Below, piece by piece: positions 9,485 to 34,036 of a stretch of DNA of 34,036 nucleotides; positions within the stretch are counted from its first letter, which is position 1; each line of letters starts with the position of its first letter. Source of the stretch: Actinomycetota bacterium (GTDB lineage: Bacteria > Bacillota > Desulfotomaculia > Desulfotomaculales > Desulfocucumaceae); contig JAMCVT010000028.1 of assembly GCA_023475565.1 (NCBI GenBank), positions 1 to 34,036 of the forward strand, written 5' to 3'. The translations under genes and the position numbers were made by a program. The notes beneath the pieces were generated by a model. It had not been told where the DNA came from, did not search any database, and worked only from the letters and a program-made list of their open reading frames with translations.

Positions 9485-9528
9485 AGAAGGAAAAGGCTGC
9501 GGGAGGTTCCCCGCAGCCTTTTCCTTCT
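9485..9528 (-). terminator. Long intrinsic terminator, probably bidirectional
   Basis: A perfect 19-bp stem (9485-9503 / 9510-9528) with core GGCTGCGGG/CCCGCAGCC and flanking AAGGAAAA/TTTTCCTT. The T-rich arms serve either direction. It overlaps the stop codon of the minus-strand ATPase by two bases. Confidence 0.85.
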
Positions 9529-10636
9529 ATTTAAAGTCTTCCGCCAGCTCCAGTATCCTGGACATTGTCTTTTCCCGGCGGGCGTTTATTTCCTCAAAGT
9601 TCATGTAGGGCACATAATAGGTCTCCATGTGGTCGTGCTCGGACTTGGCCTTGGAGATGAACTCTATGGCCAGCTCCATGCTGCGGCGGTACATCTCCCG
9701 GGCGGTGGTCTTTTCAGCCAGGTACCGGGTGTCCAGCACCTGGTTGACGAACTCCATGGTGTCTATGACCCGGTCGCCCTCCCGGGGCTTGTAGAAGTGG
9801 GGCTCCACCGAGTTGATCACGGCTATGTCCAGGGCCGGTATAACCAGGTGGTCTATGTTTTCCGGGGTGAGGGCGCAGTGGTAGGACTCCACGTTAAAGC
9901 CCCTCATCATGGCGGCGTCCATAAGTCTTTTAACCAGGGTGCTTTTCCCGGTGCCGTCATCCCCGCTTATAATATAGCGTTTATTTAAATGATCCACCAC
10001 GGTGTCCAGGTGGCTGACCGACCCGTCCGGGGTGATAGCCGTGATAAAAAGGTGGCGGGCCCTGGGAGTGGCGGCCTGCCTCTCCCTGCCCTCAAAAATT
10101 TCGTGGGTCAGCTCCAGGCACATATTGTCCAGCGCCCCCACATCCAGCGCCCGGGTGTCCTGGTAGTAGGACTCCACCTGGTCCAGGAATATCTTGGCGC
10201 TGGCCAGGAACCCGTAGGCCCTGCGGAAAAGCCTGCCTACCTCGCGGTTGGAGTCCAGTATATCAGACTTGTTCTTAACCAGCCCCCCGGCGTTCCAGTG
10301 GTCCCCCAAATGAATTATTTCATCGACGGCCCCCGGGTTCTTGGGGTCCACCACGTGGGGGGCTGTGCCGTCCAGGAGGGCCACCCCAATGGCCGGAATC
10401 ATCACCCCGTCCAGGGATCCGTTGTCCGAGGAGCAGCAGTGGAACTCCACATCGTAGCCCCTGCCCAGCATAGTCTCCCCAATTTTTCTCATGAAGGTTG
10501 ATTTTCCTACCCCAGGGCCTCCCTTTATCACAAATATCCTGGTGGCGTCCGGCTCAATGATGTAGTCGTAAAAGGAATGAAAACCCTTACTGGTGTTTCC
10601 CCCGGGGAAAACCTTCTTCAGCCTTCCCATGCCCAT
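9527..10636 (-). CDS. Tandem P-loop ATPase, PRK06851-type
   Basis: A 369-residue protein made of two homologous P-loop halves. Walker A motifs are GGPGVGKST (residues 39-47) and GDDGTGKST (225-233). Each is followed by a matching block: VEFHCCSSD...MIPAIGVALLDGTAPH in the first half and VESYHCALT...VIPALDIAVINSVEPH in the second. This duplication and the length fit the uncharacterised PRK06851 ATPase family of Firmicutes. No membrane segment or fused effector domain is present. It is alone on the minus strand and ends in its own strong terminator, and it is divergent from the histidine kinase across a 267-bp gap. Role unknown; nucleotide-dependent regulation is a guess. Confidence 0.85.
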   Translation of the reverse strand: MGMGRLKKVFPGGNTSKGFHSFYDYIIEPDATRIFVIKGGPGVGKSTFMRKIGETMLGRGYDVEFHCCSSDNGSLDGVMIPAIGVALLDGTAPHVVDPKNPGAVDEIIHLGDHWNAGGLVKNKSDILDSNREVGRLFRRAYGFLASAKIFLDQVESYYQDTRALDVGALDNMCLELTHEIFEGRERQAATPRARHLFITAITPDGSVSHLDTVVDHLNKRYIISGDDGTGKSTLVKRLMDAAMMRGFNVESYHCALTPENIDHLVIPALDIAVINSVEPHFYKPREGDRVIDTMEFVNQVLDTRYLAEKTTAREMYRRSMELAIEFISKAKSEHDHMETYYVPYMNFEEINARREKTMSRILELAEDFK

Positions 10637-10903: not shown

Positions 10904-12013
10904 ATGTCCGGCAGTGGTTTTCTGGAAGACAGTTTTTTAAGCCACTCGGAAAACTTCAAACGTACCCTTTTAAGTGTAAATGACGGAGTTTACATGACGG
11001 ACAGGGAAAGACGGATTGTATTCTGGAATCCTGCCTCTGAGAGAATAACCGGCTACACTGCCGTTGAGGTGCTGGGTAGAAAGTGCTCCGACAATATATT
11101 GAGCCACGTGGATATGAACGGCCATTCCCTGTGCGACACCCGCCTGTGCCCTCTGTACCAGACAATGGAAAAGGGAGTCCCCGGGGAAAGTCCTGTGGTG
11201 GTGAGAGCCAGGCGCAGTGACGGCACCAGGGTGGCCGCCGAGGTCAGCGTAGCGCCGCTGTTCGGAGATGACGGGGTGGTCATAGGCGGGGTGGAGGTTT
11301 TCCGGGATATCACCGAAAAGCAGAAGCTGGCGGAAATAAAGTCCCGCTTCCTTTCTGGCGTAACCCACGAGCTTAAAAACCCCCTCACCATAATGCAGGG
11401 CTTCATTGAGCTGGTTCTTTCCGGGGACACCGGTGAAATAAACCAGCTGCAGAGGGAATTCCTGGACAGCGCCCGGGAGGAAGGGGACCGCTTTAAAAGA
11501 ATACTGGATGATCTCCTTGATTTTGCCCGCTATGAGGCCACGGAGTATTCTTACAACCTTAGGGGTATCGACCTGTCGTCCATGCTGCTCCAGGTGGCCG
11601 GAAGCTGCAGCGCCGAGGCGTCAAGGAAAAAGATTGCTGTAAACACCAACATACCTGGCGGTATTTTTATTTTCGGCGATGGGGACAGGCTGCACCAGGC
11701 CTTTGCCAACCTGATGGGCAATGCCCTTAAATATACAGAAAAAGGATCGGTGGGAATTACCGCCGGGACATCGGACGGCCACGCCGTAGTTGTGGTCCGG
11801 GACACCGGCATAGGGATTCCGGTGGAGGACCAGGGGCGTATTTTTGACCAGTTTTACAGGGTGGGCAACGATTTGACCCTTAAGGTGGGTGGTACAGGCA
11901 TTGGCCTTTCCATCGTTAAAAAGATTATTGATAGGCACGGCGGAGAGATTGGTGTCAGGAGCAGGCCCGGGGCAGGCAGCGAATTTACCGTCACTCTTCC
12001 CCTCAAGGCTTGA
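10904..12013 (+). CDS. Cytosolic PAS-domain sensor histidine kinase
   Basis: A 369-residue kinase without membrane segments. One PAS domain spans about residues 15-137 (NDGVYMTDRERRIVFWNPA...VFRDITEKQ). The phospho-acceptor is H155 in VTHELKNPL. The HATPase domain contains NLMGNALKYT (N box), VVRDTGIGIP (G1), IFDQFYRV (F box) and GGTGIGLSIVKKI (G2). The PAS domain carries CSDNILSHVD and LCDTRLCPL, with cysteines C61, C77 and C82 that could bind metal, an Fe-S cluster or heme, or act as a redox switch. It precedes the first ANTAR regulator by 193 bp and is the only histidine kinase in the window. It is therefore the best candidate to phosphorylate one or both ANTAR regulators and so control the GS-GOGAT genes. 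The signal it senses is unknown. Confidence 0.92.
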   Translation: MSGSGFLEDSFLSHSENFKRTLLSVNDGVYMTDRERRIVFWNPASERITGYTAVEVLGRKCSDNILSHVDMNGHSLCDTRLCPLYQTMEKGVPGESPVVVRARRSDGTRVAAEVSVAPLFGDDGVVIGGVEVFRDITEKQKLAEIKSRFLSGVTHELKNPLTIMQGFIELVLSGDTGEINQLQREFLDSAREEGDRFKRILDDLLDFARYEATEYSYNLRGIDLSSMLLQVAGSCSAEASRKKIAVNTNIPGGIFIFGDGDRLHQAFANLMGNALKYTEKGSVGITAGTSDGHAVVVVRDTGIGIPVEDQGRIFDQFYRVGNDLTLKVGGTGIGLSIVKKIIDRHGGEIGVRSRPGAGSEFTVTLPLKA

Positions 12014-12206: not shown

Positions 12207-12809
12207 ATGTTCGGAACCCGAATAGTCATAGTCGATGCTGACGCTGCCTATCGCCGCTGTTTAAAAGAAGCTTTTCGCCACGCCGATTACTATGTGGCAG
12301 GGGAGGCTTCAGACGCCAGGGGAGCGCTGCAGATCATATTTCAGTCCGATCCCCAGGTGATCGTCATGGACCCTTACATCCCCGGGAGCGAGGGCATAGG
12401 GCTGACCGGCATAATAGACGAGCACCGGGTGGCCCCGGTGGTGGTTATTGTTCCCCAGACCGAGGGAGAAATAGAAGAGTACGTCCGCCTGCCGGGAGTT
12501 TACGGAGCGCTCCTCAAACCACTCCAGGAGGGAACTGTGCTGCCGGTTATAGAAACGGCCCTGGCCAATTTCGAACGGGCCCTTAAATTGGAAAAGGAGC
12601 TCAGGGAAGTGCGCCGGGAGCTGGAGAACAGGAAGATTGTAGAAAAGGCCAAGGGACTTCTTATGGAAAGAAAAAAGATGTCTGAGAAGGAGGCCTACAA
12701 ATATCTTCAGAAAATGAGCATGGACCAGTGCGTGCCCCTGTCCAGGGTGGCTATGGATTATATAAAAAGATGCCAGCTTCCGCCGGGAAGATCCCCTGAC
12801 AGGGTCTGA
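12207..12809 (+). CDS. ANTAR-domain response regulator 1 (antiterminator)
   Basis: A 200-residue protein. The receiver domain (residues 5-123) has the acidic pair D10/D12, phospho-acceptor D55 (VIVMDPYIPG) and conserved K104 (LLKPL). A coiled-coil linker runs from about 124 to 143. The ANTAR domain (about 135-190) has NRKIVEKAKGLLMERKKMSE and AYKYLQKMSM. ANTAR proteins bind paired hexaloop RNA hairpins and prevent intrinsic termination. The switch Thr/Ser that normally follows beta-4 is absent: IVPQTE here, against ILTSTY in regulator 2. Phosphorylation may therefore couple differently. It lies between the PAS kinase and the pseudo-glutamine synthetase, 175 bp before the latter. Clostridial glnA-nitR clusters also pair an ANTAR regulator with GS-GOGAT genes. 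Confidence 0.92.
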   Translation: MFGTRIVIVDADAAYRRCLKEAFRHADYYVAGEASDARGALQIIFQSDPQVIVMDPYIPGSEGIGLTGIIDEHRVAPVVVIVPQTEGEIEEYVRLPGVYGALLKPLQEGTVLPVIETALANFERALKLEKELREVRRELENRKIVEKAKGLLMERKKMSEKEAYKYLQKMSMDQCVPLSRVAMDYIKRCQLPPGRSPDRV

Positions 12810-12873
12810 AGAAATTTAATTTAATTTCTCCTGTATACAGTATTATTATAGTGACATCATTGATTTTGGGCAG

Positions 12874-12902
12874 TTACAGGTGTATACTTACTTTTATATA
12901 AT
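12874..12902 (+). promoter_or_regulatory. Probable sigma-A promoter of pseudo-glnA
   Basis: TATAAT at 12897-12902 is preceded at 17 bp by TTACAG (12874-12879), a weak -35. Transcription would start near 12909, at the base of the first leader hairpin. Confidence 0.5.
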
Positions 12903-12906
12903 ATCT

Positions 12907-12967
12907 CAGGGCAAGGGAGTCCTGCGCAGGCTATCTTTTTAAAGAAAGCCTGTGTGGGCTTTTTTTG
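12907..12967 (+). promoter_or_regulatory. Variant ANTAR-type leader with terminator switch
   Basis: Hairpin CAGGGC-AAGGGA-GTCCTG (12907-12924) has a six-base loop with A at position 1 and G at position 4, the ANTAR signature. Next, CAGGCT (12927-12932) can pair with AGCCTG (12947-12952). The latter overlaps AAAGCC (12945-12950), which forms a terminator with GGCTTT (12957-12962) followed by a T run. Antiterminator and terminator are mutually exclusive. Only one clear hexaloop hairpin is seen, unlike the other four leaders. Confidence 0.55.
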
Positions 12968-12984
12968 TTTTGGAGGGTATGCAA

Positions 12985-14316
12985 ATGATTAAAACATTTA
13001 GCAGGGAAGATGTTCTTGACCGGGTCAGGGACCAGAATGTAAAGTTCATAAGGCTTCAGTTTACAAGTATTCCAGGCTTTCTAAAAAACATAGCGGTAAC
13101 GGTGGAAGAGCTGCACACCGCTCTGAAAGGCAGGGTGATGTTTGACAGCTCTGTCATTGAGGGGTTTGTGGGCAGCAGGGAGTCGGACATTTACCTGATG
13201 CCTGACCCCACCACCTTTGTGGTGTTTCCCTGGCGGCCCAGAGAGGGTGCAGTGGCCAGGCTTATCTGCGACATTGCCAGCCCCGACGGGAATTCTTTTG
13301 AGGGCTGCCCCAGGCTAGCATTGAAAAGGGTTTTGGAGGAGTATTCGGCCAAAGAACTGGAGGTAAGGGTAGGGGCTGAAATAGAGTTTTATCTTTTCCA
13401 TGTTGACGAACATGGGCGGCCCACCTCCAGCACCCAGGACCAGGCCGGCTACTGTGACCTTACCCCGGTGGACAGGGGAGAGAACGCCCGGCGCGACATG
13501 GTGCTGACACTGCAGGAGATGGGTTTCGATGTGGCCACCTCTTTTCACGAGATAGGGCCTGGCCAGCATGAAATATACCTCAAGGAAGATACAGTCCTTA
13601 GCATGGCCGACAGCATAACCACCTTTAAATTCGTAGTCAGGACAATAGCCCAGAGGCACGGTCTGCATGCCTCCTTTATGCCCCGCCCCCTGGGGGGCTG
13701 CAACGGGTCCGGCATGAACCTGCACCTTTCTGTTTTTCAAAAAGGGCTTAACGCCTTTGACAGCCCCGGGGATGAGTATCAGCTGAGCAGCCTTGCGCAA
13801 AGCTACATGGGGGGAATACTGGATCACGCGGCTGCCATAACGGCGGTGGCCAATCCCACTGTGAACAGCTACAAGAGGCTGATGGCCGGAGGCACTGCCC
13901 CGGTCCTGGCGGCCTGGTCCCGCCAAAACCGGAGCACCATGATAAGGGTTCCCGCCGAGAGGGGAGAGGGCGCCAGAATAGTGATCAGGAGCCCGGACCC
14001 CTCCTGTAACCCGTATATTGCCCTGGCGGCCTGCCTGAGGGCCGGTCTTGACGGAGTGAGCCGCGGCCTTCCGGCGCCGGAGCCCCTGGACGACCTGCCC
14101 CAGGGGAACGGTGAGCTGAGGGAACTGGTCAGAAGGAAGGGCCTCCCCCGCAACCTGGAGGGGGCGCTGATTGCTCTATCCCGGGACCGGGTGATCAGGG
14201 AAGCATTGGGAGAGAGGATTTACAGGAGGTTTACCGCTTCCAAGGAGGATGAGTGGGAGAGGTATCAGTCTACCGTGCACAGCTGGGAAATAGAGGAGTA
14301 CCTGACCAATTATTAA
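12985..14316 (+). CDS. Glutamine-synthetase paralogue lacking catalytic residues (pseudo-GS)
   Basis: A 443-residue GSI-alpha-like protein, exactly the length of the two intact synthetases downstream. ATG 12985 is chosen because GGAGGG (12972-12977) has correct spacing only for it. The beta-grasp and catalytic folds are clear ([45 protein letters not shown]). The n1-metal glutamates and substrate arginines remain. However, the n2-metal histidine is N245 (GSGMN), the n2-metal glutamate is V333 (RIVIR), and the flap glutamate that accepts the ammonium proton is T304 (GGTAPV). In Salmonella numbering these are H269, E357 and E327. The feedback arginine of GSI-alpha (FVRIEE) is also lost (FVGSRE). 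It is probably catalytically dead or repurposed; a regulatory subunit or sensor role is inferred. Confidence 0.9.
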   Translation: MIKTFSREDVLDRVRDQNVKFIRLQFTSIPGFLKNIAVTVEELHTALKGRVMFDSSVIEGFVGSRESDIYLMPDPTTFVVFPWRPREGAVARLICDIASPDGNSFEGCPRLALKRVLEEYSAKELEVRVGAEIEFYLFHVDEHGRPTSSTQDQAGYCDLTPVDRGENARRDMVLTLQEMGFDVATSFHEIGPGQHEIYLKEDTVLSMADSITTFKFVVRTIAQRHGLHASFMPRPLGGCNGSGMNLHLSVFQKGLNAFDSPGDEYQLSSLAQSYMGGILDHAAAITAVANPTVNSYKRLMAGGTAPVLAAWSRQNRSTMIRVPAERGEGARIVIRSPDPSCNPYIALAACLRAGLDGVSRGLPAPEPLDDLPQGNGELRELVRRKGLPRNLEGALIALSRDRVIREALGERIYRRFTASKEDEWERYQSTVHSWEIEEYLTNY

Positions 14317-14485: not shown

Positions 14486-16066
14486 ATGAGTTTTAGCAAA
14501 GGTATCAATGCCACTGCAGCTACCCTTACCCGCACCCGCACGGGAGAAAGCAGGTGTCCCTTCAGCGGAATGTGCGTAACCTGCCTTGACGGTTGCCCGG
14601 GTCTGTGTGAGGTGGGAAAATCTGCTGTGCGGGCAAAAGAAGTACTTTATCCCCAGCCTTTCGGAAAAATTACCGCCGCCTCGGAAAAGGACTATCCGGT
14701 TGACTACTCGCACTTTAATATAATGGGAACCGCCGTAGGCGCCATTGGTATCGAGCCCAATCCCGACAAGGCAATTTTCCCGGCCGTGGACCTCACCTCG
14801 GCCGTGGGATCAAAGGGAGAGGTCAAGCTGGATCTCCCCATAGTTGTGGCCGCCATGGGGTCCACCAACGTGGCCGCGGACAACTGGGACCACCTGGCTG
14901 CCGGCGCGGCCATTTCCGGCTGCGGTATAGCCATAGGCGAGAATGTCTGCGCCATGGACCCCAACGTTGAAATCAAGAACGGCAGGGTTGTTCACTCTCC
15001 CAACCTTGAGCGCCGGGTGAAGGACTTCCAGAACTGGTACAACGGCAAGGGCTTTATAGCCGTCCAGGCCAACGTTGAAGACACTACCCTGGGGGTGCAG
15101 GAATACGCCCTTGAAAAACTGGGCGTTGAGGCTGTTGAGCTCAAGTGGGGCCAGGGAGCCAAGGACATCGGCGGAGAGGTTAAGCTGAACACCCTGGAGA
15201 GAGCCCTCCAGCTTAAATCAAGGGGCTATATCGTACTGCCCAATCCCGAGGACCCGAAGGTTCAGGAAGCATACAGGGCCGGCGCCTTCAGTGAATTTGA
15301 GCGCCACTCCCGCATCGGCATGGTTGAGTACGAGTCCTTCATGAAGAGGGTGGAGGAACTGCGTAAGCGCGGGGCCAGGCAGGTATTCCTCAAAACCGGC
15401 GCGTACCGCCCGGCCGACCTGGCCAGGGCCGTCAAGTACGCCTCGGACGCCAGACTGGACCTGCTCACCGTTGACGGCGCGGGCGGCGGCACCGGAATGA
15501 GCCCCTGGAGAATGATGAATGAATGGGGCATTCCCACCGTCTACATCCAGGCCCTGCTGGTCAGGTACCTTGACAAACTGGCCGCCAAAGGCGCCTACAT
15601 TCCGCCTGTGGCCATCGCCGGAGGCTTTGCCCTGGAGGATCAAATGTTCAAAGGTTTGGCCATGGGCGCCCCCTACATCAAGCTTATCGGAATGGCCCGC
15701 TCCGCTCTGTCTGCCGCCATGGTCGGCAAGACCGTGGGCGAGGCTGTCAGGACCGGCAAGGTTCCCAACGAGTACAAAAAATACGGGGAAACCCTTGATC
15801 AGGTATTTGTCTCGGCCAGCGAGCTGAGGGAAAAACTTGGCCCGGACGCCTTCAGCAGGCTGCCCGTGGGCGCCATCGGAGTATATTCCTATTTCGAGCG
15901 CCTGGCCCAGGGGCTGCGCCAGTTCATGTGCGGCGCCCGCAAATTCGGCCTGCAGTACATCACCAGGGACGATCTGGTTTCTCTGACCAGGGAGGCTGCC
16001 GAGATAACCGGCATAAAATATATAATGGAGGCAGATGCCGACGAAGTTGAACAAATTTTAGGCTGA
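14486..16066 (+). CDS. Stand-alone FMN glutamate-synthase-domain protein
   Basis: A 526-residue protein equal to the FMN-binding synthase domain of glutamate synthase, without the N-terminal glutamine amidotransferase domain. Barrel motifs include VELKWGQGAKD, LLTVDGAGGGTGMSP and PPVAIAGGFA. The N-terminus has a cysteine cluster, C24, C30, C33, C37 and C41 (CPFSGMCVTCLDGCPGLC), that could hold an Fe-S centre. The C-X5-C-X4-C 3Fe-4S motif of true GltB was not seen. AGGAGG at 14470-14475 supports ATG 14486. It lies between pseudo-GS and gltB on the same strand. The physiological reaction of this 'glutamate synthase-related' group is not established; ammonia-dependent or redox functions are possible. 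Confidence 0.85.
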   Translation: MSFSKGINATAATLTRTRTGESRCPFSGMCVTCLDGCPGLCEVGKSAVRAKEVLYPQPFGKITAASEKDYPVDYSHFNIMGTAVGAIGIEPNPDKAIFPAVDLTSAVGSKGEVKLDLPIVVAAMGSTNVAADNWDHLAAGAAISGCGIAIGENVCAMDPNVEIKNGRVVHSPNLERRVKDFQNWYNGKGFIAVQANVEDTTLGVQEYALEKLGVEAVELKWGQGAKDIGGEVKLNTLERALQLKSRGYIVLPNPEDPKVQEAYRAGAFSEFERHSRIGMVEYESFMKRVEELRKRGARQVFLKTGAYRPADLARAVKYASDARLDLLTVDGAGGGTGMSPWRMMNEWGIPTVYIQALLVRYLDKLAAKGAYIPPVAIAGGFALEDQMFKGLAMGAPYIKLIGMARSALSAAMVGKTVGEAVRTGKVPNEYKKYGETLDQVFVSASELREKLGPDAFSRLPVGAIGVYSYFERLAQGLRQFMCGARKFGLQYITRDDLVSLTREAAEITGIKYIMEADADEVEQILG

Positions 16067-16131: not shown

Positions 16132-16217
16132 TTAGATACAATGAAGTATCTAAAACATTAAGGCAAAGATGCCCTTTCTCATGGTTTTTATGACCTTGGG
16201 AGGGCATTTTCTTTTTT
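16132..16217 (+). promoter_or_regulatory. ANTAR antitermination leader of gltB
   Basis: P1 is TTAGATAC-AATGAA-GTATCTAA (16132-16153), an 8-bp stem with a hexaloop having A1 and G4. After a six-base linker, P2 is AAGGC-AAAGAT-GCC (16160-16173), again with A1/G4. The P2 3' strand begins the terminator stem ATGCCCT (16169-16175) / AGGGCAT (16201-16207), followed by a T run to 16217. P2 and the terminator cannot form together, which is the known architecture of ANTAR-regulated attenuators. ANTAR binding should allow read-through into gltB. Confidence 0.85.
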
Positions 16218-16312: not shown

Positions 16313-19300
16313 ATGATTAAACAGGGACTCTATGATCCAGCATTTGAGCATGATGCCTGCGGGGTTGGTTTTGTTTGTAACATCAAGGGGAAAAAGTCCA
16401 ATCAGATTGTCCGCCAGGGCCTGGAGGTACTGGTGCGGCTGTCTCACCGGGGCGCCACCGGCGCCGACCCTAAAACCGGTGATGGCGCGGGCATACTGAT
16501 CCAGTTTCCCCATCAATTTTTTGTTAAGGCAGCCAAAGAAGCAGGCATTTCTGTCCCTCTGGAAGGGGAATACGGCAGCGGCCTGGTTTTCCTGCCCAAG
16601 GCTGTAAAGGACAGGGAATTCTGCAAAAAGGTATTTGAGGATATAATTAAAGACCAGGGCCAAAATGTATTGGGGTGGAGAAAAGTACCGGTAGATAATA
16701 CCGATATTGGGAAAACGGCCCGGGAGACAGAGCCGGAAATAGAGCAGATCTTTATCGGGCGCTCAGCAGATATAAAAGACCAGCTGCAGTTTGAAAGAAA
16801 GCTGTATGTAATCCGCAAGCTTGCAGAGAATAAGATACGCTCTTCTGATATTGGGCAGAAGTCTTATTTTTATATACCAAACATATCTTCCAGGACATTT
16901 TGTTATAAAGGGCTTCTTACTCCGGAACAGGTGGAAAAATTCTTTGTTGATTTAAGTGACAGCTCAATAGAAAGTTCTATTAACCTTGTTCATTCCCGCT
17001 ACAGCACCAATACCTTTCCCACCTGGGATCTGGCGCAGCCTTTCCGCTTTCTGGCCCATAATGGTGAAATCAATACCCTGCGCGGCAATATGAATTGGAT
17101 GAGGGCAAAGGAAGGTCTTTTGGAAAGCAGTCTTTTCGGCGATGATTTAAGGCGCACGCTGCCGACAATTATTTCCGGAGGCAGTGACTCGGCCATCATC
17201 GATAATGTTCTTGAACTGCTGGTTCTTGCCGGCAGGCCTCTGGACCTGGTCATGACCATGCTGATACCTCCCGCCTGGGAGCATAATCATCTGATGAGCT
17301 TAAAGCACCGTGATTTCTATAAATACCATGCCTGCCTGATGGAGCCCTGGGACGGTCCGGCGGCCATGGCCTTTACCAATGGCAGTCAGATTGGCGCCGT
17401 GCTGGACAGGAACGGACTGCGGCCGGCCCGCTATATAATCACCAAGGATGACCTGGTGGTTATGGCCTCGGAAATGGGTGTGCTGGATATTGAGCCTAAG
17501 AATATATTAAAAAGCGGACGGCTGGAGCCCGGCAAGATGTTTTTTATCGATACCGAGGCCGGGAAAGTAATTGATGACTCCGAGCTGAAAGAGGCCATGG
17601 CCTCCAGAAAGCCTTACGGAAATTGGCTGAAAGCCAATATGCTGGAGCTAGACCAGCTTCCGGAAAATGTGGTCGACTGGTCTGTGGTTGAGGAGCCCCC
17701 CAAATCTTCCGATCTGCTGACCGACATGAAGGCCTTTGGCTATACCAGGGAAGACATAAAGGTTGTTATGAAACCCATGTGCGAAACAGGCAAGGAGCCT
17801 GTGGGGGCTATGGGGAACGATACCCCGCACGCAATTTTGTCTAACAGGCCGCAGCTTTTATTTAACTATTTCAAACAGCTTTTCGCCCAGGTAACCAACC
17901 CGGCCATTGATCCCATCCGTGAAGAGCTGGTAATGAGCATGGACAGTTATATGGGGTGCAGGAAAAATGTGCTGGATGAGACTCCCGATCTCTGCAAAAA
18001 GCTCCATGTTAAATCCCCTGTCTTGAAGAATAAAGAGCTGGCCAGAATTATGGCTTTAAAAGAGCCTGGCTTTAAGGCGAAGAAAATATCCACATTATTC
18101 AAGGTAAATAATGATAAAGATTTTATGGATACCCTGGACCGCATCTGTATGGAAGCCAATCAGGCCATTGACGGGGGACATACTCTCATAGCATTAAGTG
18201 ACCGGGGTGTGAGCCGGGAATATGCGGCAGTGCCGGCCTTACTGGCAGTTGGCGCAGTGCACCAGCACCTGGTAAAGAACGGCAGGCGCTCGCAGACAGC
18301 CCTTATACTGGAAAGCGCCGAGCCAAGAGAAGTCAACCACTTTGCTCTGCTGTTCGCCTTCGGGGTGGGGGTGATTAATCCCTATCTTGCTTTTGAAGTC
18401 GTTGAGCAGATGGTTAAGGAAAAAGACTTGAACATGGACCCGGAGAAGGCCATTTACAATTATATAAAATCAATAGATAAAGGCATTAAAAAAGTTCTCT
18501 CCAAAATGGGTATTTCAACCCTGCAGAGCTACCGGGGCGCCCAGATATACGAGGCCCTGGGACTGGGTGATGAGGTTATCGGGCGCTGTTTTACCGGAAC
18601 TGTGTCCAGGATAGGCGGCATAGACTTTGAGGTTATCCGTAAAGAGGCCCTGCTAAGGCACCGGGACGCATACCCGCGGAGGAAGGAAGCCTATACCAGG
18701 TATTTGAATACCGGCGGGCTTTTCCAGTGGAAGCGCGATGGTGAATTCCACCTCTGGAACCCGGACAGCATATCGTCTTTACAGGATGCGGCAAGAACCA
18801 ACGACTATGGCAAATATAAGCAGTTTGCCGGTTTAATCAATGACCAGTCGAACAATCCCACCACCTTGAGAAGCCTTCTTAAATTCAGTCCGGCGCAGGC
18901 AGTTCCTTTAGAAGAGGTTGAGCCGGTGGAAGAAATATTAAAGCGGTTTGTTACCGGGGCCATGAGCTTTGGCTCCATAAGCAAGGGGGCCCATGAGGCC
19001 ATGGCCATAGCCATGAACAAGCTGGGCGGAAAGTCAAACACCGGTGAGGGCGGGGAAGACCCGGCCAGGTTTCACCCCCTGCCCAATGGCGATTTGGCCA
19101 GAAGCGCCATTAAACAAATTGCCTCGGGCCGGTTTGGTGTTACCAACAACTATCTGACCAATGCGGATGAAATACAGATTAAAATATGCCAGGGCGCAAA
19201 GCCGGGAGAAGGCGGCCAGCTGCCCGGCCACAAGGTCAGCTCCATTATCGCCAAGACCAGGTATACCACACCCGGAGTAACTCTTATATCACCTCCGCCG

Positions 19301-20827
19301 CACCACGACATTTATTCTATAGAGGATCTGGCCCAGCTTATATTCGATCTTAAAAACGTCAATCCCAGGGCCCGGGTCAGCGTCAAGCTGGTGTCGGAAA
19401 TGGGTGTGGGCACAGTGGCTGCCGGTGTGGCCAAAGGGCATGCGGACATGATCCTTATCTCAGGGGGTGATGGCGGAACAGGGGCCTCACCGGTCAGCTC
19501 CATTCGCCATGCGGGGCTGCCCTGGGAGCTTGGCCTTTCGGAAACCCATCAAACACTGGTGCTGAATGACCTGAGGAGCCGTGTGCGCCTGCAATCCGAC
19601 GGGCAGATGAGAACCGGCCGGGATATAGCCATCGCTTCCATTCTGGGTGCTGAAGAATACGGCTTCGCCACCGCTGCCCTTATTGTGCTGGGCTGCGTAA
19701 TGCTAAGGCACTGCAATCTGAACAACTGCTCGGTGGGTATTGCCACCCAGAATGACATTCTGGAAAAGCGCTTCCGGGGTAATCCGGATCACCTGGTCAA
19801 CTATTTCCGCTTTGTGGCCCGGGACCTGCGTGAGATTATGGCCTCCATCGGGGTAAGGAAAGTTGATGATTTAATCGGCAGGACAGAGCTGTTAGAAGTT
19901 AATCCGGCTATGCTGGACTGGAAGAGGAAGGATATCGATTACTCCAAAATACTGTACCGGCCGCAGGTGCCGGCAGCGGTGGGAACCCGCTGCACCATTA
20001 AGCAGGACCACGGCATTGATAAGGTACTGGACAGGGAATTGATCAGGATAGCCGGACCGGCGCTGGCGGATAAACAGGCTGTTAAGGCTGAAATGACCAT
20101 TAAGAATGTCAATAGAACCACCGGCGCCATGCTTTCCGGCGAGGTTTGCCGGATCTGCGGCGAGGAAGGCCTTCCGGAAGGTACCATTACCTTTAAGTTT
20201 AAGGGTGTTGCCGGGCAGAGCTTTGGAGCATGGCTGGCCAAGGGAGTAACCTTCGAGCTGGAAGGAATGGCCAATGACTATGTGGGTAAAGGTATTTCCG
20301 GCGGGAAAATAATCATCTACCCTGACACAAGAACCACCTTTGCGCCGGAAGAAAATATAATTATCGGTAATACCACTTTCTATGGGGCTATCAGTGGGGA
20401 GGCGTATATTCGCGGCATGGCCGGCGAGCGCTTCTGCATCAGGAATTCAGGCTTAAATGCCGTGGTGGAAGGGGTAGGCGACCATGGCTGTGAATACATG
20501 ACCGGCGGAAGGATAGTGGTAATAGGTAAAACGGGACGAAACTTTGCCGCGGGTATGTCCGGCGGTATAGCCTATGTTTATGATGCGGAAGGTAATTTTA
20601 AAGACAGGTGCAACCAGGAAATGGTGGAACTGGATAAAAATCTGACAGAAGAAGATCTTTTTACTATAAGAACCTTGATTCATAATCATTACAACAGTAC
20701 AAGCAGTGATAAGGCAGAATTCATTCTTGACCATTTTACTGATGAGAAAGATAAATTTGTCAAAGTAATGCCTTTGGAATATAAAAAGATACTGGAGACC
20801 ATCCAGGTCAAAAAAAAATCAATTTGA
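16313..20827 (+). CDS. gltB: Glutamate synthase (GOGAT) large subunit
   Basis: A 1504-residue enzyme of full family length. It converts 2-oxoglutarate and glutamine to two glutamates. Residues 1-15 are a propeptide; C16 (DACGVGF) is the N-terminal nucleophile of the class II amidotransferase domain, about 16-430. The central domain and the FMN synthase domain (about 780-1200) follow, with SNTGEGGEDP, SVKLVSEMGVG and ISGGDGGTGASP. The 3Fe-4S ligands are C1128, C1134 and C1139 (C-X5-C-X4-C). The C-terminal GXGXG beta-helix covers about 1230-1450. Its stop lies 12 bases before the gltD ATG, so the two form an operon. Control is by the promoter and ANTAR leader upstream. No defect seen. Confidence 0.97.
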   Translation: MIKQGLYDPAFEHDACGVGFVCNIKGKKSNQIVRQGLEVLVRLSHRGATGADPKTGDGAGILIQFPHQFFVKAAKEAGISVPLEGEYGSGLVFLPKAVKDREFCKKVFEDIIKDQGQNVLGWRKVPVDNTDIGKTARETEPEIEQIFIGRSADIKDQLQFERKLYVIRKLAENKIRSSDIGQKSYFYIPNISSRTFCYKGLLTPEQVEKFFVDLSDSSIESSINLVHSRYSTNTFPTWDLAQPFRFLAHNGEINTLRGNMNWMRAKEGLLESSLFGDDLRRTLPTIISGGSDSAIIDNVLELLVLAGRPLDLVMTMLIPPAWEHNHLMSLKHRDFYKYHACLMEPWDGPAAMAFTNGSQIGAVLDRNGLRPARYIITKDDLVVMASEMGVLDIEPKNILKSGRLEPGKMFFIDTEAGKVIDDSELKEAMASRKPYGNWLKANMLELDQLPENVVDWSVVEEPPKSSDLLTDMKAFGYTREDIKVVMKPMCETGKEPVGAMGNDTPHAILSNRPQLLFNYFKQLFAQVTNPAIDPIREELVMSMDSYMGCRKNVLDETPDLCKKLHVKSPVLKNKELARIMALKEPGFKAKKISTLFKVNNDKDFMDTLDRICMEANQAIDGGHTLIALSDRGVSREYAAVPALLAVGAVHQHLVKNGRRSQTALILESAEPREVNHFALLFAFGVGVINPYLAFEVVEQMVKEKDLNMDPEKAIYNYIKSIDKGIKKVLSKMGISTLQSYRGAQIYEALGLGDEVIGRCFTGTVSRIGGIDFEVIRKEALLRHRDAYPRRKEAYTRYLNTGGLFQWKRDGEFHLWNPDSISSLQDAARTNDYGKYKQFAGLINDQSNNPTTLRSLLKFSPAQAVPLEEVEPVEEILKRFVTGAMSFGSISKGAHEAMAIAMNKLGGKSNTGEGGEDPARFHPLPNGDLARSAIKQIASGRFGVTNNYLTNADEIQIKICQGAKPGEGGQLPGHKVSSIIAKTRYTTPGVTLISPPPHHDIYSIEDLAQLIFDLKNVNPRARVSVKLVSEMGVGTVAAGVAKGHADMILISGGDGGTGASPVSSIRHAGLPWELGLSETHQTLVLNDLRSRVRLQSDGQMRTGRDIAIASILGAEEYGFATAALIVLGCVMLRHCNLNNCSVGIATQNDILEKRFRGNPDHLVNYFRFVARDLREIMASIGVRKVDDLIGRTELLEVNPAMLDWKRKDIDYSKILYRPQVPAAVGTRCTIKQDHGIDKVLDRELIRIAGPALADKQAVKAEMTIKNVNRTTGAMLSGEVCRICGEEGLPEGTITFKFKGVAGQSFGAWLAKGVTFELEGMANDYVGKGISGGKIIIYPDTRTTFAPEENIIIGNTTFYGAISGEAYIRGMAGERFCIRNSGLNAVVEGVGDHGCEYMTGGRIVVIGKTGRNFAAGMSGGIAYVYDAEGNFKDRCNQEMVELDKNLTEEDLFTIRTLIHNHYNSTSSDKAEFILDHFTDEKDKFVKVMPLEYKKILETIQVKKKSI

Positions 20828-20839
20828 CGGAGGATTATG

Positions 20840-22273
20840 ATGGCTGATGCTCATGGATTTCTTAAAGTAAATAGGAGAAAGACAAAATACAGGCCGGTTT
20901 CTGATAGAATAAAAGATTTTAATGATGTGGCGCTGGCCCGGGATGAGGCCGGGTCAAAAGAACAGGCCTCCCGCTGCATGGACTGCGGCACCCCCTTCTG
21001 CCACTCAGGATGCCCGGCGGGCAATTTAATACCGGAGTGGAACGACTTACTATATCAGGGCCGTTGGGAAAAGGCCCTGGATCTGCTGCATGCCTGCAAC
21101 AGCTTTCCTGAGTTTACCGGAAGGCTTTGCCCGGCACTCTGCGAGGCCGCCTGTGTGCTGGGTTTAAATGATGATCCGGTTACCACCAGGGAAAATGAGC
21201 TGGCCATTATTGAGCATGCTTTTCAGACCGGCTATATTAAGCCCAGGCCTCCTGAGAACAGAACAGGTAAAAAAGTGGCGGTAATAGGGTCCGGCCCGGC
21301 CGGCCTTGCCTGTGCCGATCTGCTCAACAAAGCGGGCCACGAGGTTACTGTATTCGAAAAGGACGATAAAATAGGCGGTATACTTCGCTACGGCATACCC
21401 AATTTCAAGCTGGAGAAATGGGTAATAGACAGAAGGGTTGACCTGATGCAGAAAGAGGGAATTGTATTCAGGTCCGGCGTCTATGCCGGCGTGGATTATC
21501 CTGCGGACAGATTAATGGAAGACTTTGACGCCATCTGCCTGGCCGGCGGCTCCAGGGAGCCCAGGGACATGAAGGTGGAAGGCAGGGATTTAAAGGGCAT
21601 CTATTTTGCCATGGATTACCTGACCCAGGCCGGCAAAAGGCTGGAGGGCGCCCAATATCCCGGGGACAGCCTTATCGATGTCAAAGGCAGGCGGGTAGTG
21701 GTTATAGGCGGAGGTGACACCGGGTCTGACTGCGTGGGCACGGCGCACAGACAGGGGGCGTCGGGCATTGTGCAGATTGAGCTGCTGCCAAAACCGCCGG
21801 CCGGGAGGACAGAAGCATTCCCATGGCCTAAATACCCCATTATTTTAAAGACCACCTCCAGCCACGAAGAGGGAGGGGAAAGGCTGTGGTCAGTCCTTAC
21901 CAGGCGTTTTACAGGGGAAAAGGGCACGGTAAAGAGGCTGGAGTGCGTAACTGTGGATTTCTCTCAGAAAGACGCCAAAGGAAACGCCGTTATGAAAGAG
22001 GTGCCGGGCACAGAATTTGTGATTGAAGCCGATATAGTGGTGCTGGCCCTCGGGTTCCTGCATCCGGTTCATGACAGGCTGCTGGCCGACCTGAATGTTG
22101 AATTTGACGAAAGAGGCAATGTCAAAGCAGGTCCGGACGGGAAGACCGCGGTGGACAAAGTATTTACAGCCGGTGATATGAGGCGCGGGCAGTCCCTTAT
22201 TGTCTGGGCTGTTTCAGAAGGAAGGCGCTCCGCTTCAGAAATAGATAAATATTTAAATGGGATTAAGCTGTAA
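20840..22273 (+). CDS. gltD: Glutamate synthase small subunit
   Basis: A 477-residue NAD(P)H-dependent subunit that passes electrons through FAD and two [4Fe-4S] clusters to GltB. The N-terminal cysteine motifs are CMDCGTPFCHSGCP and LCPALCEAACV. The FAD-binding fold is GSGPAGLACADLL (about residue 151). The pyridine-nucleotide fold is VVIGGGDTGSDC, and TAGDMRRGQSLIVWA closes the second FAD contact. Two adjacent ATG codons exist (20837 and 20840); I chose 20840 because GGAGG at 20829-20833 is then six bases away. It is translationally close to gltB. No terminator is obvious directly after it; a new promoter begins at 22350. Confidence 0.96.
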   Translation: MADAHGFLKVNRRKTKYRPVSDRIKDFNDVALARDEAGSKEQASRCMDCGTPFCHSGCPAGNLIPEWNDLLYQGRWEKALDLLHACNSFPEFTGRLCPALCEAACVLGLNDDPVTTRENELAIIEHAFQTGYIKPRPPENRTGKKVAVIGSGPAGLACADLLNKAGHEVTVFEKDDKIGGILRYGIPNFKLEKWVIDRRVDLMQKEGIVFRSGVYAGVDYPADRLMEDFDAICLAGGSREPRDMKVEGRDLKGIYFAMDYLTQAGKRLEGAQYPGDSLIDVKGRRVVVIGGGDTGSDCVGTAHRQGASGIVQIELLPKPPAGRTEAFPWPKYPIILKTTSSHEEGGERLWSVLTRRFTGEKGTVKRLECVTVDFSQKDAKGNAVMKEVPGTEFVIEADIVVLALGFLHPVHDRLLADLNVEFDERGNVKAGPDGKTAVDKVFTAGDMRRGQSLIVWAVSEGRRSASEIDKYLNGIKL

Positions 22274-22402: not shown

Positions 22403-22488
22403 ATAGATACAAGGGTGTATCTATTAACCAAGGCAAAGCTGCCCTCTAAGGATCTGTCGTTTTGACATCTGTAGGAGGGCATTTTTTC
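22403..22488 (+). promoter_or_regulatory. ANTAR antitermination leader of ANTAR regulator 2
   Basis: P1 is ATAGATAC-AAGGGT-GTATCTAT (22403-22424), an 8-bp stem with loop A1/G4. P2 is GGC-AAAGCT-GCC (22432-22443), with loop A1/G4. Terminator TGCCCTC (22440-22446) / GAGGGCA (22475-22481) has a T run to about 22488 and shares the P2 3' strand. The layout is nearly identical to the gltB leader. The regulator gene therefore probably sits in its own antitermination circuit. Confidence 0.85.
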
Positions 22489-22560: not shown

Positions 22561-23142
22561 ATGGCCGAACAGAGAATTGTACTGGTGGACAGTGACCCCG
22601 TCGCAAGAAAGAATTTAAAATCTATGCTCACCAAATTGGGCTATTGGGTAGTGGGGGAGACTGGAGACGGACTGAACGCTCTGAAAATGGTAAGGACCCG
22701 TCAGCCTGAACTGGTCATTCTTGACTCTGCGATTCCCGGAATGGATGGCTTTGAAGTGGCCAAGATTATACACGAGGACAAACTGGCCCCCGTGGTAATA
22801 TTGACCTCAACCTATTCCCAGGGTATGGTTGAAAGGGCCAAGGAGGCCCGCGTATCCGCCTTTCTGGTCAAACCTGTGGATGAGATAAGCATACTGCCGG
22901 CCATTGAGCTGGCCCTGGCCAGTTACGGGGAAATAGTCAACCTGGAGACCAAGCTCCAAGACCTGAAAGAACTTCTGGAGACAAGGAAGATACTGGAAAA
23001 AGCCAAGGGTATTCTTATGGAAACCATGGGGCTTTCCGAGGCCGAGGCCTTCCGCAGGATGCAAAAGCAGAGCATGAACAAGCGGGTTTCCATGAGGCAG
23101 GTGGCCGAGGCGGTCATTCTGGCCCAGAACCTGAAGGAGTAA
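22561..23142 (+). CDS. ANTAR-domain response regulator 2 (antiterminator)
   Basis: A 193-residue regulator. The receiver domain (residues 5-122) is complete, with D10/D12, phospho-acceptor D55 (LVILDSAIPGMDG), switch T82 (ILTSTYS) and K104 (FLVKP). A coiled-coil region (about 124-142) leads to the ANTAR domain (about 138-192) with TRKILEKAKGILMETMGLSE and AFRRMQKQSM. All canonical phosphorylation residues are intact, unlike regulator 1, to which it is clearly homologous over its full length. CACGGAGG ends at about 22551, before ATG 22561. Its transcript begins with an ANTAR leader, suggesting positive autoregulation. It sits between gltD and glnA, as the NitR-type ANTAR protein does in clostridial glnA-nitR-glt clusters. 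Confidence 0.93.
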   Translation: MAEQRIVLVDSDPVARKNLKSMLTKLGYWVVGETGDGLNALKMVRTRQPELVILDSAIPGMDGFEVAKIIHEDKLAPVVILTSTYSQGMVERAKEARVSAFLVKPVDEISILPAIELALASYGEIVNLETKLQDLKELLETRKILEKAKGILMETMGLSEAEAFRRMQKQSMNKRVSMRQVAEAVILAQNLKE

Positions 23143-23406: not shown

Positions 23407-23450
23407 TATATGAAAATTGCATACAAAAATCACGGAAGGTGGTATTTAAA

Positions 23451-24782
23451 ATGGAAGCGGCAGTGAAAAATGAAATTCTGGCCAAGGCCAGGGAGGCCCA
23501 GGTTAAGTTCATTCGCCTTCAGTTCACCGATATTCTGGGTGTTCTGAAAAATCTGGCTATTACCGTGGAACAGCTGGAAAAGGCTCTGGACGGGGAACTA
23601 ATGTTTGACGGCTCCTCCATTGAGGGCTTTGTAAGAATTGAGGAGTCAGACATGTATCTTCGCCCGGATCCCAAGACCTTCGAGGTATTTCCCTGGAGAC
23701 CCAGGGAGGGCGCGGTGGCCCGTCTTATGTGCGATGTATACAATCCAGACGGGACACCCTTTGACGGCTGCCCCCGCAATGCTCTGAAAAAGGCGCTGGC
23801 CGAGGCGGCGGAAATGGGATACACTATGAATGTCGGACCCGAGGCAGAATTCTTCCTGTTCCAGGTTGACGAGAACGGACAACCTTCCCTGAAAACCCAC
23901 GACAAGGCCGGCTATTTTGACCTCACCCCCGTGGACATGGGCGAAAATGCCCGCCGGTCCATGGTGCTCACCCTGGAGGAAATGGATTTTGAAATTGAGG
24001 CCTCGCACCATGAAGTGGCCCCCGGCCAGCATGAAATTGACTTCAAGTATTCCGACGCCCTGGACGTGGCCGACAAAATAGTCACCTTCAAGTATGTGGT
24101 CAGGACTATAGCCCAAAGGCACGGCCTGCATGCCACCTTCATGCCCAAGCCCATCTTCGGCATCAATGGCAGCGGCATGCACTGCAACCAGTCCCTTTTT
24201 GAGGGTCCCCAAAATGCTTTTTACGACGCCAACAGCCCGGATGGGCTGAGTAAAATTGCCAAGTACTACATCGGTGGGCTTATGAAGCACGCCAGGGCTT
24301 TCGCGGCTATCACCAACCCCACGGTCAACTCATACAAGCGCCTGGTTCCCGGCTATGAGGCCCCTGTGTACATTGCCTGGTCCGGCCGCAACCGGAGTCC
24401 TTTGATCAGGGTTCCGGCCAAGCGGGGTATGTCCACCAGGGTCGAGCTCAGAAACCCGGACCCGTCCTGCAACCCGTACCTGGCCATCGCCGCCATGCTT
24501 AAGGCAGGACTGGATGGTATCAAGAACAAAATACAGCCTCCGGAGCCCTGCGAGCGTAATATTTACCACATGACCGATTCTGAAAGGAAGGAGCTGGGGA
24601 TCGGCAGCCTGCCCTCCAGCCTCCAGGAAGCCCTGCAGGAGATGGCCGCCGACGAGGTTGTCAAATCCGCCCTGGGCCCGCATATCTTCCAGAAGTTTAT
24701 GGAAGCCAAGGCCAAGGAGTGGGATTCCTTCCGGATACAGGTTCACGCCTGGGAAGTGGAAGAATACCTTTCCAAGTTTTAA
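23451..24782 (+). CDS. glnA: Glutamine synthetase, GSI-alpha, intact copy A
   Basis: A 443-residue ATP-dependent glutamine synthetase (glutamate + ammonium). All catalytic residues are present: metal glutamates in GPEAEFFLF and [11 protein letters not shown]244 (GSGMH), flap E303 (GYEAPV), substrate arginines in NSYKRL and [10 protein letters not shown], and E332 (RVELR). The GSI-alpha feedback arginine is present ([10 protein letters not shown]). The adenylylation-loop tyrosine context of enteric GSI-beta is absent. ATG 23451 is chosen over GTG 23439 because GGAAGGTGG (23434-23442) then has 8-base spacing and the length matches the paralogues. It is preceded by an ANTAR leader and followed by a strong terminator, so it is likely monocistronic. 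Confidence 0.96.
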
Positions 24783-25072: not shown

Positions 25073-25112
25073 GATATTTCCATAAATAAAAAAGCGAAGA
25101 GGTGTGAATACG

Positions 25113-26444
25113 GTGGCTCAATTGACGAACGACGATGTACGCAGTTTGGCCAAGGAACTGGGAGTGAAGTTTGTCAGACTTCAGTTTACTGACATCTTCG
25201 GTGTCTTAAAGAATGTTTCGATCACGGTGGAGCAGCTGGACAAAGCGCTGGAAGGTGAACTGATGTTTGACGGTTCATCAATAGAAGGTTATGTCCGCAT
25301 TGAAGAGTCGGACATGTATCTCCGGCCCGACCCTTCCACCTTTGTGGTGTTCCCCTGGAGGCCCAGGGAAGGATCGGTGGCCAGGCTTATATGCGATGTA
25401 TACAACACCGACGGCACTCCTTTTGCCGGAGATCCCCGCTATGTGCTCAAAAAGGCTACCGCTGAGGCCAAAGAACTTGGCTATACCATGAATGTAGGGC
25501 CCGAGGCGGAGTTTTTCCTCTTTCATGTAGACAGTGAAGGCAGGCCCACTACCGTAACCCATGACAGCGCGGGTTATTTTGATCTCACCCCGGTTGACCT
25601 GGGGGAAGATGCCCGCAGGGATATGGTCATGACCCTGGAGCAGATGGGCTTCGAAATCGAGGCCTCTCACCACGAGGTAGCCCCGGGCCAGCATGAAATA
25701 GATTTTAAATACTCGGACGCGGTTGATATTGCCGACAAGGTGGTCACCTTCAAGTTTGTGGTCCGCACCATAGCTCAGCGGCACGGACTGCATGCCACCT
25801 TTATGCCCAAACCGGTCTTCGGTATTGCCGGGTCCGGGATGCACTTAAACCAGTCCCTGATGCACAATGGAAGCAATGCCTTTTACGATCCGGGCACTCC
25901 CCACCAGCTCAGCGATGTGGCCATGCACTATATCGGGGGGCTGATGGATCACATAAAGGCCATTACGGCTGTCACCAATCCTACGGTAAACTCATATAAG
26001 AGGCTTGTGGCGGGTTATGAGGCCCCGGTTTACATCGCCTGGTCATACAGGAACCGGAGCCCCCTAATCAGGGTTCCAGCCAAGAGGGGACTGTCCACCC
26101 GCATTGAGCTGCGCAGCCCCGACCCTTCCTGCAACCCCTACCTGGCACTGGCGGTTTGCCTTTCGGCCGGGCTGGACGGCATTAAGAGAAAGATTGCTCC
26201 CCCGCTGCCCTGTGACCGCAATATATACGAAATGAGTAATGAAGAGCGCAGGGATCTGGGTGTGGGCAGCCTTCCCGGCAGCCTGGAGGGCGCCCTTGAA
26301 GAATTAAGCAGAGACAAGGTTATTCTGGAGGCCCTGGGACCCCACGTCAGGGAGAGGTACCTGGAGGCCAAGAGGATTGAGTGGGACAGGTACCGCATTC
26401 AGGTTCACCAGTGGGAGACTGAAGAATATCTGACCAAATTTTAG
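25113..26444 (+). CDS. glnA: Glutamine synthetase, GSI-alpha, intact copy B
   Basis: A 443-residue glutamine synthetase closely related to copy A and with the same complete active site: [20 protein letters not shown]244 (GSGMH), E303 (GYEAPV), [16 protein letters not shown], and the feedback motif [11 protein letters not shown] chose GTG 25113 rather than the in-frame GTG 25104, because the latter falls directly on AGAGG (25098-25102) and 25113 gives exactly the paralogues' length. It has its own promoter and ANTAR leader and ends in its own terminator. Two active isozymes plus one pseudo-enzyme in one cluster suggests a division of labour or regulation by hetero-oligomers; that is inference. 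Confidence 0.95.
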
Positions 26445-33912: not shown

Positions 33913-34036
33913 GTGCGACCGGGCAAGGTCGTGTGATTTAGCGGGTGGAACTCCCGTCCGGTAAGGCTTAACCAAGCCACCGGTAGCGAGTCATGGATGT
34001 AAGGAAGTAATTCCTTGCATTAAGCGTTGACAGTCA
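33913..34036 (+). mobile_element. 5' end of a group II intron (domain I), continues outside window
   Basis: The segment starts with GTGCGACC, the conserved GTGYG 5' end of bacterial group II introns. It continues with the characteristic pattern GGCAAGGTCGTG, GGGTGGAACTCCCG, AACCAAGCCACCGGTAGCGA and GTCATGGATGTAAGG, which resemble domain I of bacterial lineages in Peptococcaceae. No reverse-transcriptase/maturase reading frame is reached. Domains V and VI are outside the window. Confidence 0.75.

Follow-up and report, generated by a model that had tools for sequence, protein, structure and literature searches.

Lengsin, a protein of the vertebrate lens, belongs to the glutamine synthetase (GS) family and has no GS activity. 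AmiC and NasS are small-molecule-binding proteins of another kind, without a GS fold. In the pairs AmiC-AmiR and NasS-NasT, they act as sensors that hold an ANTAR antiterminator (PMC3795266). In Bacillus, the D50 loop and the E flap of GS are involved in the ammonium step, in reading glutamine and in holding the regulator GlnR, and in the B. subtilis enzyme Glu304 and Arg62 bind and lock glutamine (PMC9249791). An ANTAR regulator of the GS/GOGAT genes, NitR, has been described in Clostridium saccharobutylicum, as cited in PMC6316151. The signature of an ANTAR target is a hexaloop hairpin with A at position 1 and G at position 4, and ANTAR leaders have been predicted at the glutamate synthase genes of D. 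reducens, together with at least 13 attenuators in D. acetoxidans (Ramesh 2012, PMC3369931).

Here, we analyze a pseudo-glutamine synthetase (pGS) encoded next to an ANTAR gene in a window of 34,036 nucleotides, by which we mean the whole stretch of DNA that was studied. It makes up one contig of a draft genome of 2.7 Mb. Among public genomes, 'Peptococcaceae bacterium' BICA1-7 and BRH_c4a are the closest relatives, with Desulfofundulus and Desulfovirgula also giving close matches. Since catalytic residues have been lost and yet the gene is intact beside an ANTAR gene, pGS is probably a sensor or a regulatory partner rather than an enzyme. We give a probability of roughly 50% to the more specific reading that it is a non-catalytic, ligand-binding regulatory partner of the adjacent ANTAR protein, and the pGS family would then be a concrete candidate for the receptor that couples nitrogen status to ANTAR antitermination.

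Organization of the locus

All the genes of the block lie on the forward strand of the window. A PAS histidine kinase (10904-12013) is followed by ANTAR1 (12207-12809), which has a receiver and an ANTAR domain and lies directly 5' of pGS (12985-14316). Next come GltB2 (14486-16066), a glutamate-synthase-domain protein of 526 aa, the large and small subunits of glutamate synthase (GltB, 16313-20827; GltD, 20837-22273), a second receiver plus ANTAR protein (ANTAR2, 22561-23142), and two intact glutamine synthetases, GS_A (23439-24782) and GS_B (25104-26444). Within the class, a group of anaerobes allied to Desulfotomaculum, the order ANTAR - pseudo-GS - GltB2 - ANTAR - GS forms a fixed block. 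The histidine kinase has a close match beside ANTAR1 in G000, G001 and G005 only, and most relatives have none at that place.

Other features of the window were also recorded. A protein encoded on the reverse strand at 9527-10636, and so transcribed away from the block, combines two P-loop ATPase halves, and it has a counterpart (47-94% identity) in the neighbourhood in many relatives. The glycyl-radical enzyme encoded at 4342-6933 matches none of the NCBIfam equivalogs, its best score being 384 bits where 1000 are required. The contig end cuts off a group II intron (Rfam RF02005), of which the start lies at 33948-34036.

A GSI-alpha fold with a replaced active site

The pGS reading frame is open across 443 aa, with an alternative GTG start upstream at 12952, and both GS domains are present (PF03951 and PF00120). 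The best match of its AlphaFold model (pLDDT 83, pTM 0.88) among solved structures is, by Foldseek, the P. polymyxa GS-GlnR complex (7tfa; TM 0.93). We read the residues of pGS by alignment to B. subtilis GS (PDB 4lnf/4s0r) and to both paralogues of the cluster. Four replacements stand out in the window protein, namely H to N245, E to V333, the flap glutamate E to T304, and the feedback arginine R to G63 (equivalent to Arg62), while E132, E134, E189, E196, R298, R316, R321 and R335 are retained. For the roles of the sites, which we number below after Salmonella (E129, E131, E212, E220, H269, R321, E327, R339, R344, E357 and R359), we assume those generally given for the family.

The first-pass annotation, made from the sequence alone, had described a GS fold with the glutamate-binding arginines kept and with the flap glutamate and the GSI-alpha feedback arginine lost, and the alignment and the structural match agree with it on each of these points. 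It was also right that the paralogues of the cluster are intact, as GS_A and GS_B retain every catalytic site. Its statement that both visible ligands of the n2 metal had been replaced needs qualification: the changes at 245 and 333 are real, but the third ligand, E132 (Salmonella E129), is retained, so that two of three are lost. A separate genome (L052), whose pGS is 91% identical, has the same residues at the replaced sites, and the substitutions are thus not a sequencing error.

The window protein scores 452 bits against the equivalog model TIGR00653, above the cut-off of 429, and a pipeline using this model would label it an active type I glutamate-ammonia ligase. Judging from this one protein having passed the cut-off, GS gene counts are probably wrong in at least 57 genomes of the class.

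Conservation of the active-site changes

We searched for relatives of the pGS protein in the class (113 genomes) and in the phylum (398 genomes), and extracted about 60 loci with their neighbourhoods. Relatives are present in at least 57 of the 113 genomes of the class, a count that takes in G006 (split across two contigs), G062 and G063; the site counts rest on 55 full-length sequences. The equivalent of the flap glutamate E327 (E304 in B. subtilis) is kept in none of the 55, being Leu in 36 and otherwise Val, Thr, Met, Phe, Ile, His, Pro or Ala. That of E357 is likewise never kept (Ile 26, Val 20, Leu 4, Thr 3, Ala 2). The other sites vary more: the H269 equivalent (window 245) is His in 32 and lost in 23, the E129 equivalent is Glu in 36 and Gln in 15 (Gln or Gly in 19), and Arg62 is kept in 11 and lost in 44. 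The glutamate-binding arginines, on the other hand, are nearly invariant (R321 and R339 in 55/55, R359 in 54/55), and the E131 equivalent is Glu or Asp in every sequence. Except for one divergent member, the 101 other GS genes on the same stretches keep their catalytic sites. Conservation of the particular residues N, T and V at 245, 304 and 333, which the first-pass annotation had proposed as a check, does not hold, as position 304 is mostly Leu, 333 mostly Ile or Val, and 245 is still His in the 32 sequences counted above. What is conserved in pGS, universally in these 55 sequences, is the loss at 304 and 333 and not the replacing residue.

Active GS has 177 invariant sites, of which pGS retains 109 (each in at least 90% of the sequences) and has lost 33. 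Among the latter are S57 of the D50 loop, which is Val in most, and I64, E65, D198, F199, E304, Y308 and E333. In 55/55 sequences, Val, Ala, Ile or Leu takes the place of the ammonium-site serine of the D50 loop, and D54 of the same loop is kept. Thus the D50 loop and the E flap have been remodelled in pGS while the arginines that bind the amino acid stay, a combination that favors a ligand-binding partner of ANTAR1.

These residues also bear on whether pGS could catalyze another reaction, either an ammonium-free gamma-glutamyl transfer or a glutamate-binding step serving GltB2, the gene directly downstream in most genomes. The retained arginines, most n1 ligands and D54 would be compatible with this, and the outgroups described below, which lack the flap glutamate only, may still form gamma-glutamyl phosphate. 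In pGS itself, however, the E357 equivalent is always a residue that does not normally bind Mg or Mn here, and together with the changes at E129 and H269 this means that the n2 metal, which positions the ATP phosphates, should be lost. With the ammonium-site serine gone as well, we regard a different catalytic activity as very unlikely.

Two more GS relatives lie outside the block (L024, at G001 C33:252079-253392, and L134:18451). They are 51-54% identical to pGS, and have the flap glutamate replaced (by His and Arg) along with further active-site changes.

The C-terminal region corresponding to the inter-ring helices contains residues that are invariant in pGS (K420, E423, H432, W434, E435, Y439 and L440), which makes assembly into a double ring plausible, either of pGS alone or mixed with other subunits. 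The main rival to a partnership with ANTAR1 builds on this point, and supposes that pGS is a regulatory subunit mixed into the GS_A/GS_B double ring, tuning its activity or feedback inhibition. Its length and fold, which are those of the paralogues, and the 109 retained invariant sites suit such a role, and most genomes have one or more active GS genes within the block. The first-pass annotation, too, had suggested a dodecamer partner of active GS. But the locus of many genomes contains a single active GS, so that there is no fixed partner, and GltB2 and ANTAR2 separate pGS from the active GS genes while ANTAR1 touches it. Moreover, the distance correlations of pGS with GS_A and GS_B are indistinguishable from the species background. 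We therefore think a mixed ring unlikely.

Genes adjoining pGS

By a strict rule, ANTAR1 adjoins pGS in 53 of 58 contexts. Of the five misses, L059 and L186 are explained by the edge of a contig or of the fetched stretch, and L134 by the rule itself (its ANTAR1 is at 14006), which leaves G103, with no visible ANTAR1, and a second pGS copy in G033. This second copy (L139) lies away from any ANTAR or GltB2 gene, and its leader ends in a terminator-like element without the scanned hairpin. In L174 and L175, ANTAR1 is divergently oriented. The two genes are also usually missing together: in nine GS loci without pGS (G008, G009, G014, G026, G027, G057, G068, G075 and G077), ANTAR1 is absent as well from the stretch seen. 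The exception is G003 (L172), where ANTAR1 is followed directly by GltB2, an apparent loss of pGS alone. The link between pGS and ANTAR proposed in the first-pass annotation is thus borne out by gene adjacency, as it is by the leader RNA described below; ANTAR1 without pGS in G003, and pGS without ANTAR1 in G103 and the second copy of G033, count against a partnership.

GltB2 also adjoins pGS in 53 of 58 contexts, which raises the possibility that the two work together in glutamate metabolism as a structural or channelling unit, with the ANTAR genes only sharing the regulon. Against this, pGS occurs without adjacent GltB2 in G074, G076 and the second copy of G033, and GltB2 persists without pGS in G003, G026 and G027. 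We consider such a unit highly improbable, and return to the partnership with ANTAR1.

Of 44 ANTAR1 proteins, 30 have the acceptor Asp and 12 a complete Asp-(Thr/Ser)-Lys triad; for ANTAR2 the corresponding numbers are 16 and 10 of 40. Because most triads are incomplete, phosphorylation probably does not serve as a general switch in the block, which leaves room for a partner protein. The window is less favorable to this idea, as its ANTAR1 keeps the phospho-Asp and adjoins a histidine kinase, and there phosphorylation by the neighbouring kinase may also carry signal. Two further observations speak against the partnership. The C-termini of ANTAR1, compared by eye, are short and variable, with no conserved GlnR-like tail seen. 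In mirror-tree comparisons, the partial correlation between pGS and ANTAR1 was 0.63 with weak controls and 0.21-0.34 with GS_B as control, but this coupling disappeared (-0.03) once both GS paralogues served as controls.

Leader RNA of pGS

Upstream of pGS, a promoter-like site (GTTACA - 18 - TATAAT, 12873-12902) was called by a consensus scan that found 3 sites in the region against 2.0 expected. Directly after the TATAAT lies the hairpin CAGGGC-AAGGGA-GTCCTG (12907-12924), whose six-base loop has A at position 1 and G at position 4 and which resembles an antiterminator. The 3' arm of this hairpin also contributes to the 5' arm of a terminator-like fold, so that the entire leader (12907-12972) contains a competing terminator stem with a U-run (-34.2 kcal/mol and z -6.1 for the 70 nt folded).

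This arrangement recurs across the relatives. The hairpin nGGGC-AANGNN-GTCCn occurs in 52 of 55 leaders, by a search pattern that itself required A1 and G4, and in 50 of these 52 a terminator arm with 5 or more pairs competes with it; the outer pairs of the hairpin vary between species. Strong A1/G4 hairpins were found in 44 of 55 pGS leaders against 4.4 in shuffles, and ahead of ANTAR1 in 2 of 52. The dual motif has a different distribution, being present in 1 of 55 pGS leaders as against 31/50 for ANTAR2, 16/38 for GS_A, 16/46 for GS_B and 11/18 for gltB. In the window, dual ANTAR-type leaders lie ahead of GltB (about 16132-16215) and ANTAR2 (about 22403-22480). When dual hairpins were sought in the window with stems of 4 or more pairs, all matches were intragenic, since P2 stems at these leaders are 3 pairs long; a relaxed scan over the relatives recovers them. 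At the gathering threshold, Rfam gave no match at the leaders, and the attenuators come from our custom hairpin scan.

We interpret the pGS leader as a single-hairpin variant of the ANTAR target that starts right after the promoter. A conserved attenuator of this type supports the reading of pGS as a regulatory partner of ANTAR1; EutV, however, needs two hairpins (P1 and P2), and the single hairpin of pGS is a point against the same reading.

Phylogeny and selection

In a quick IQ-TREE run with 105 sequences, pGS forms a single clade (SH-aLRT 99). Its sister (SH-aLRT 99) consists of L193, L194 and L214, from another family of the phylum, which share the gene order ANTAR - GS - GltB2 and have only the flap glutamate replaced (by Leu), with E357 intact. 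Two genomes of a further family (L230 and L231), not placed in the tree, have also lost the flap glutamate alone at the same locus. Because these outgroups at the same locus lack the flap glutamate only, the catalytic loss appears to have been stepwise. They possibly represent an intermediate state, and the likely order is the flap glutamate first, then E357, and later H269 and E129, repeatedly. The stepwise change of an enzyme into something else can thus be followed here.

The reading frame is open in every copy of pGS found. Its dN/dS is 0.12 against the L052 genome and 0.037-0.171 over 12 close pairs, which is somewhat above GS_A and GS_B in most pairs and similar to ANTAR1; pGS is under strong purifying selection. 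One might still see in it a decaying duplicate on its way to becoming a pseudogene, given that the replacing residues at 245 and 304 differ between lineages and that pGS changes more quickly than active GS, with a mean identity of 62% as compared with 76-78%. The intact frames, the dN/dS values, and the maintenance across the whole class with fixed synteny and a conserved leader of its own make this scarcely credible, and we rejected decay on dN/dS and distribution. Instead, the earlier suggestion of a selected, non-catalytic use is strongly supported by the monophyly of pGS, its conservation across the class, the purifying selection on it and its fixed synteny.

A second lineage with degenerate GS beside ANTAR

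A scan of the genome collection revealed a distant clade from Clostridia, Christensenellales and Treponema, in which 18 contexts have a GS gene and then an ANTAR gene within about 110 bp on the same strand. The ANTAR domain was confirmed in all four neighbours tested. With the exception of L061 and L095, the GS of this clade is degenerate (E129D, E357Q and R344G; or E327K, E327R or E327D), and the ANTAR receivers have Asn at the phospho-acceptor position wherever it is readable. This includes the receiver beside L061, an intact Clostridium GS. Loci of Clostridia and Christensenellales with a degenerate GS followed by ANTAR are L074, L085, L097 and L109-L126.

The branches of the clade are long and its exact placement is unsure, but it lies outside pGS, so degeneration of GS next to ANTAR seems to have arisen at least twice. 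This repetition of the pattern adds to the case for a partnership of pGS with ANTAR1. We hold it possible, at clearly less than even odds, that GS has repeatedly become a dedicated non-catalytic receptor for ANTAR proteins, in at least two independent cases (the Desulfotomaculum-like class and Clostridia/Christensenellales), with the GS active site and the receiver both degenerating. If true, nitrogen sensors of a new class would be at work here, in which a dead enzyme reads an amino acid and acts on RNA.

A possible mechanism

How could pGS act through ANTAR1? Its arginines and n1-metal site may still bind an amino acid, for which glutamate or something closely related is the likeliest candidate, glutamate being the most economical choice because the arginines that bind it are intact. 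Glutamine sensing in the Bacillus form, one of the uses suggested by the first-pass annotation, is disfavored, since Glu304 is always and Arg62 mostly lost. The bound state of pGS would decide whether ANTAR1 acts on the hexaloop leader RNA, and this action would let the polymerase read through the terminator ahead of pGS. Readthrough could extend, directly or via ANTAR2, to the terminators of the GS/GOGAT genes, while the leader of pGS itself would close a feedback loop.

Comparison with known systems

An ANTAR regulon on the nitrogen genes of Desulfotomaculum is already known in kind; the main text of Ramesh 2012 (PMC3369931) does not mention glutamine synthetase, nor a dead one within such a regulon. 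NitR of C. saccharobutylicum is similar in that an ANTAR antiterminator governs GS/GOGAT genes, but in the account cited in PMC6316151 the GS is treated as a working enzyme, whereas pGS is without catalytic residues. We found no catalytically dead GS paired with ANTAR in the literature searched, whose coverage leaves out most subscription journals. Lengsin, likened here by general description only, is also a pseudoenzyme of GS fold; in contrast to pGS, it is eukaryotic, has another role and has no associated regulator gene.

Two kinds of system provide precedents for a partnership between pGS and ANTAR1. The first is the pairing of GS with GlnR or TnrA in Bacillus (PMC9249791; PDB 7tfa, 4s0r), which shares with our locus the same fold and a GS gene tied to the gene of a nitrogen regulator. 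However, Bacillus GlnA is active and senses glutamine through the two residues that pGS has always (Glu304) or mostly (Arg62) lost, and its regulator is a DNA binder of MerR type, while the neighbour of pGS is an RNA-binding ANTAR protein without a visible conserved C-tail. The second comprises AmiC-AmiR and NasS-NasT (PMC3795266), where, as in our locus, a gene for a ligand-binding protein (in our case a candidate) adjoins an ANTAR gene. In addition, the ANTAR receivers of our block are often degenerate, and the target is a leader hairpin. The difference is that pGS brings a GS fold to this arrangement, in a complex with ANTAR1 that is putative.
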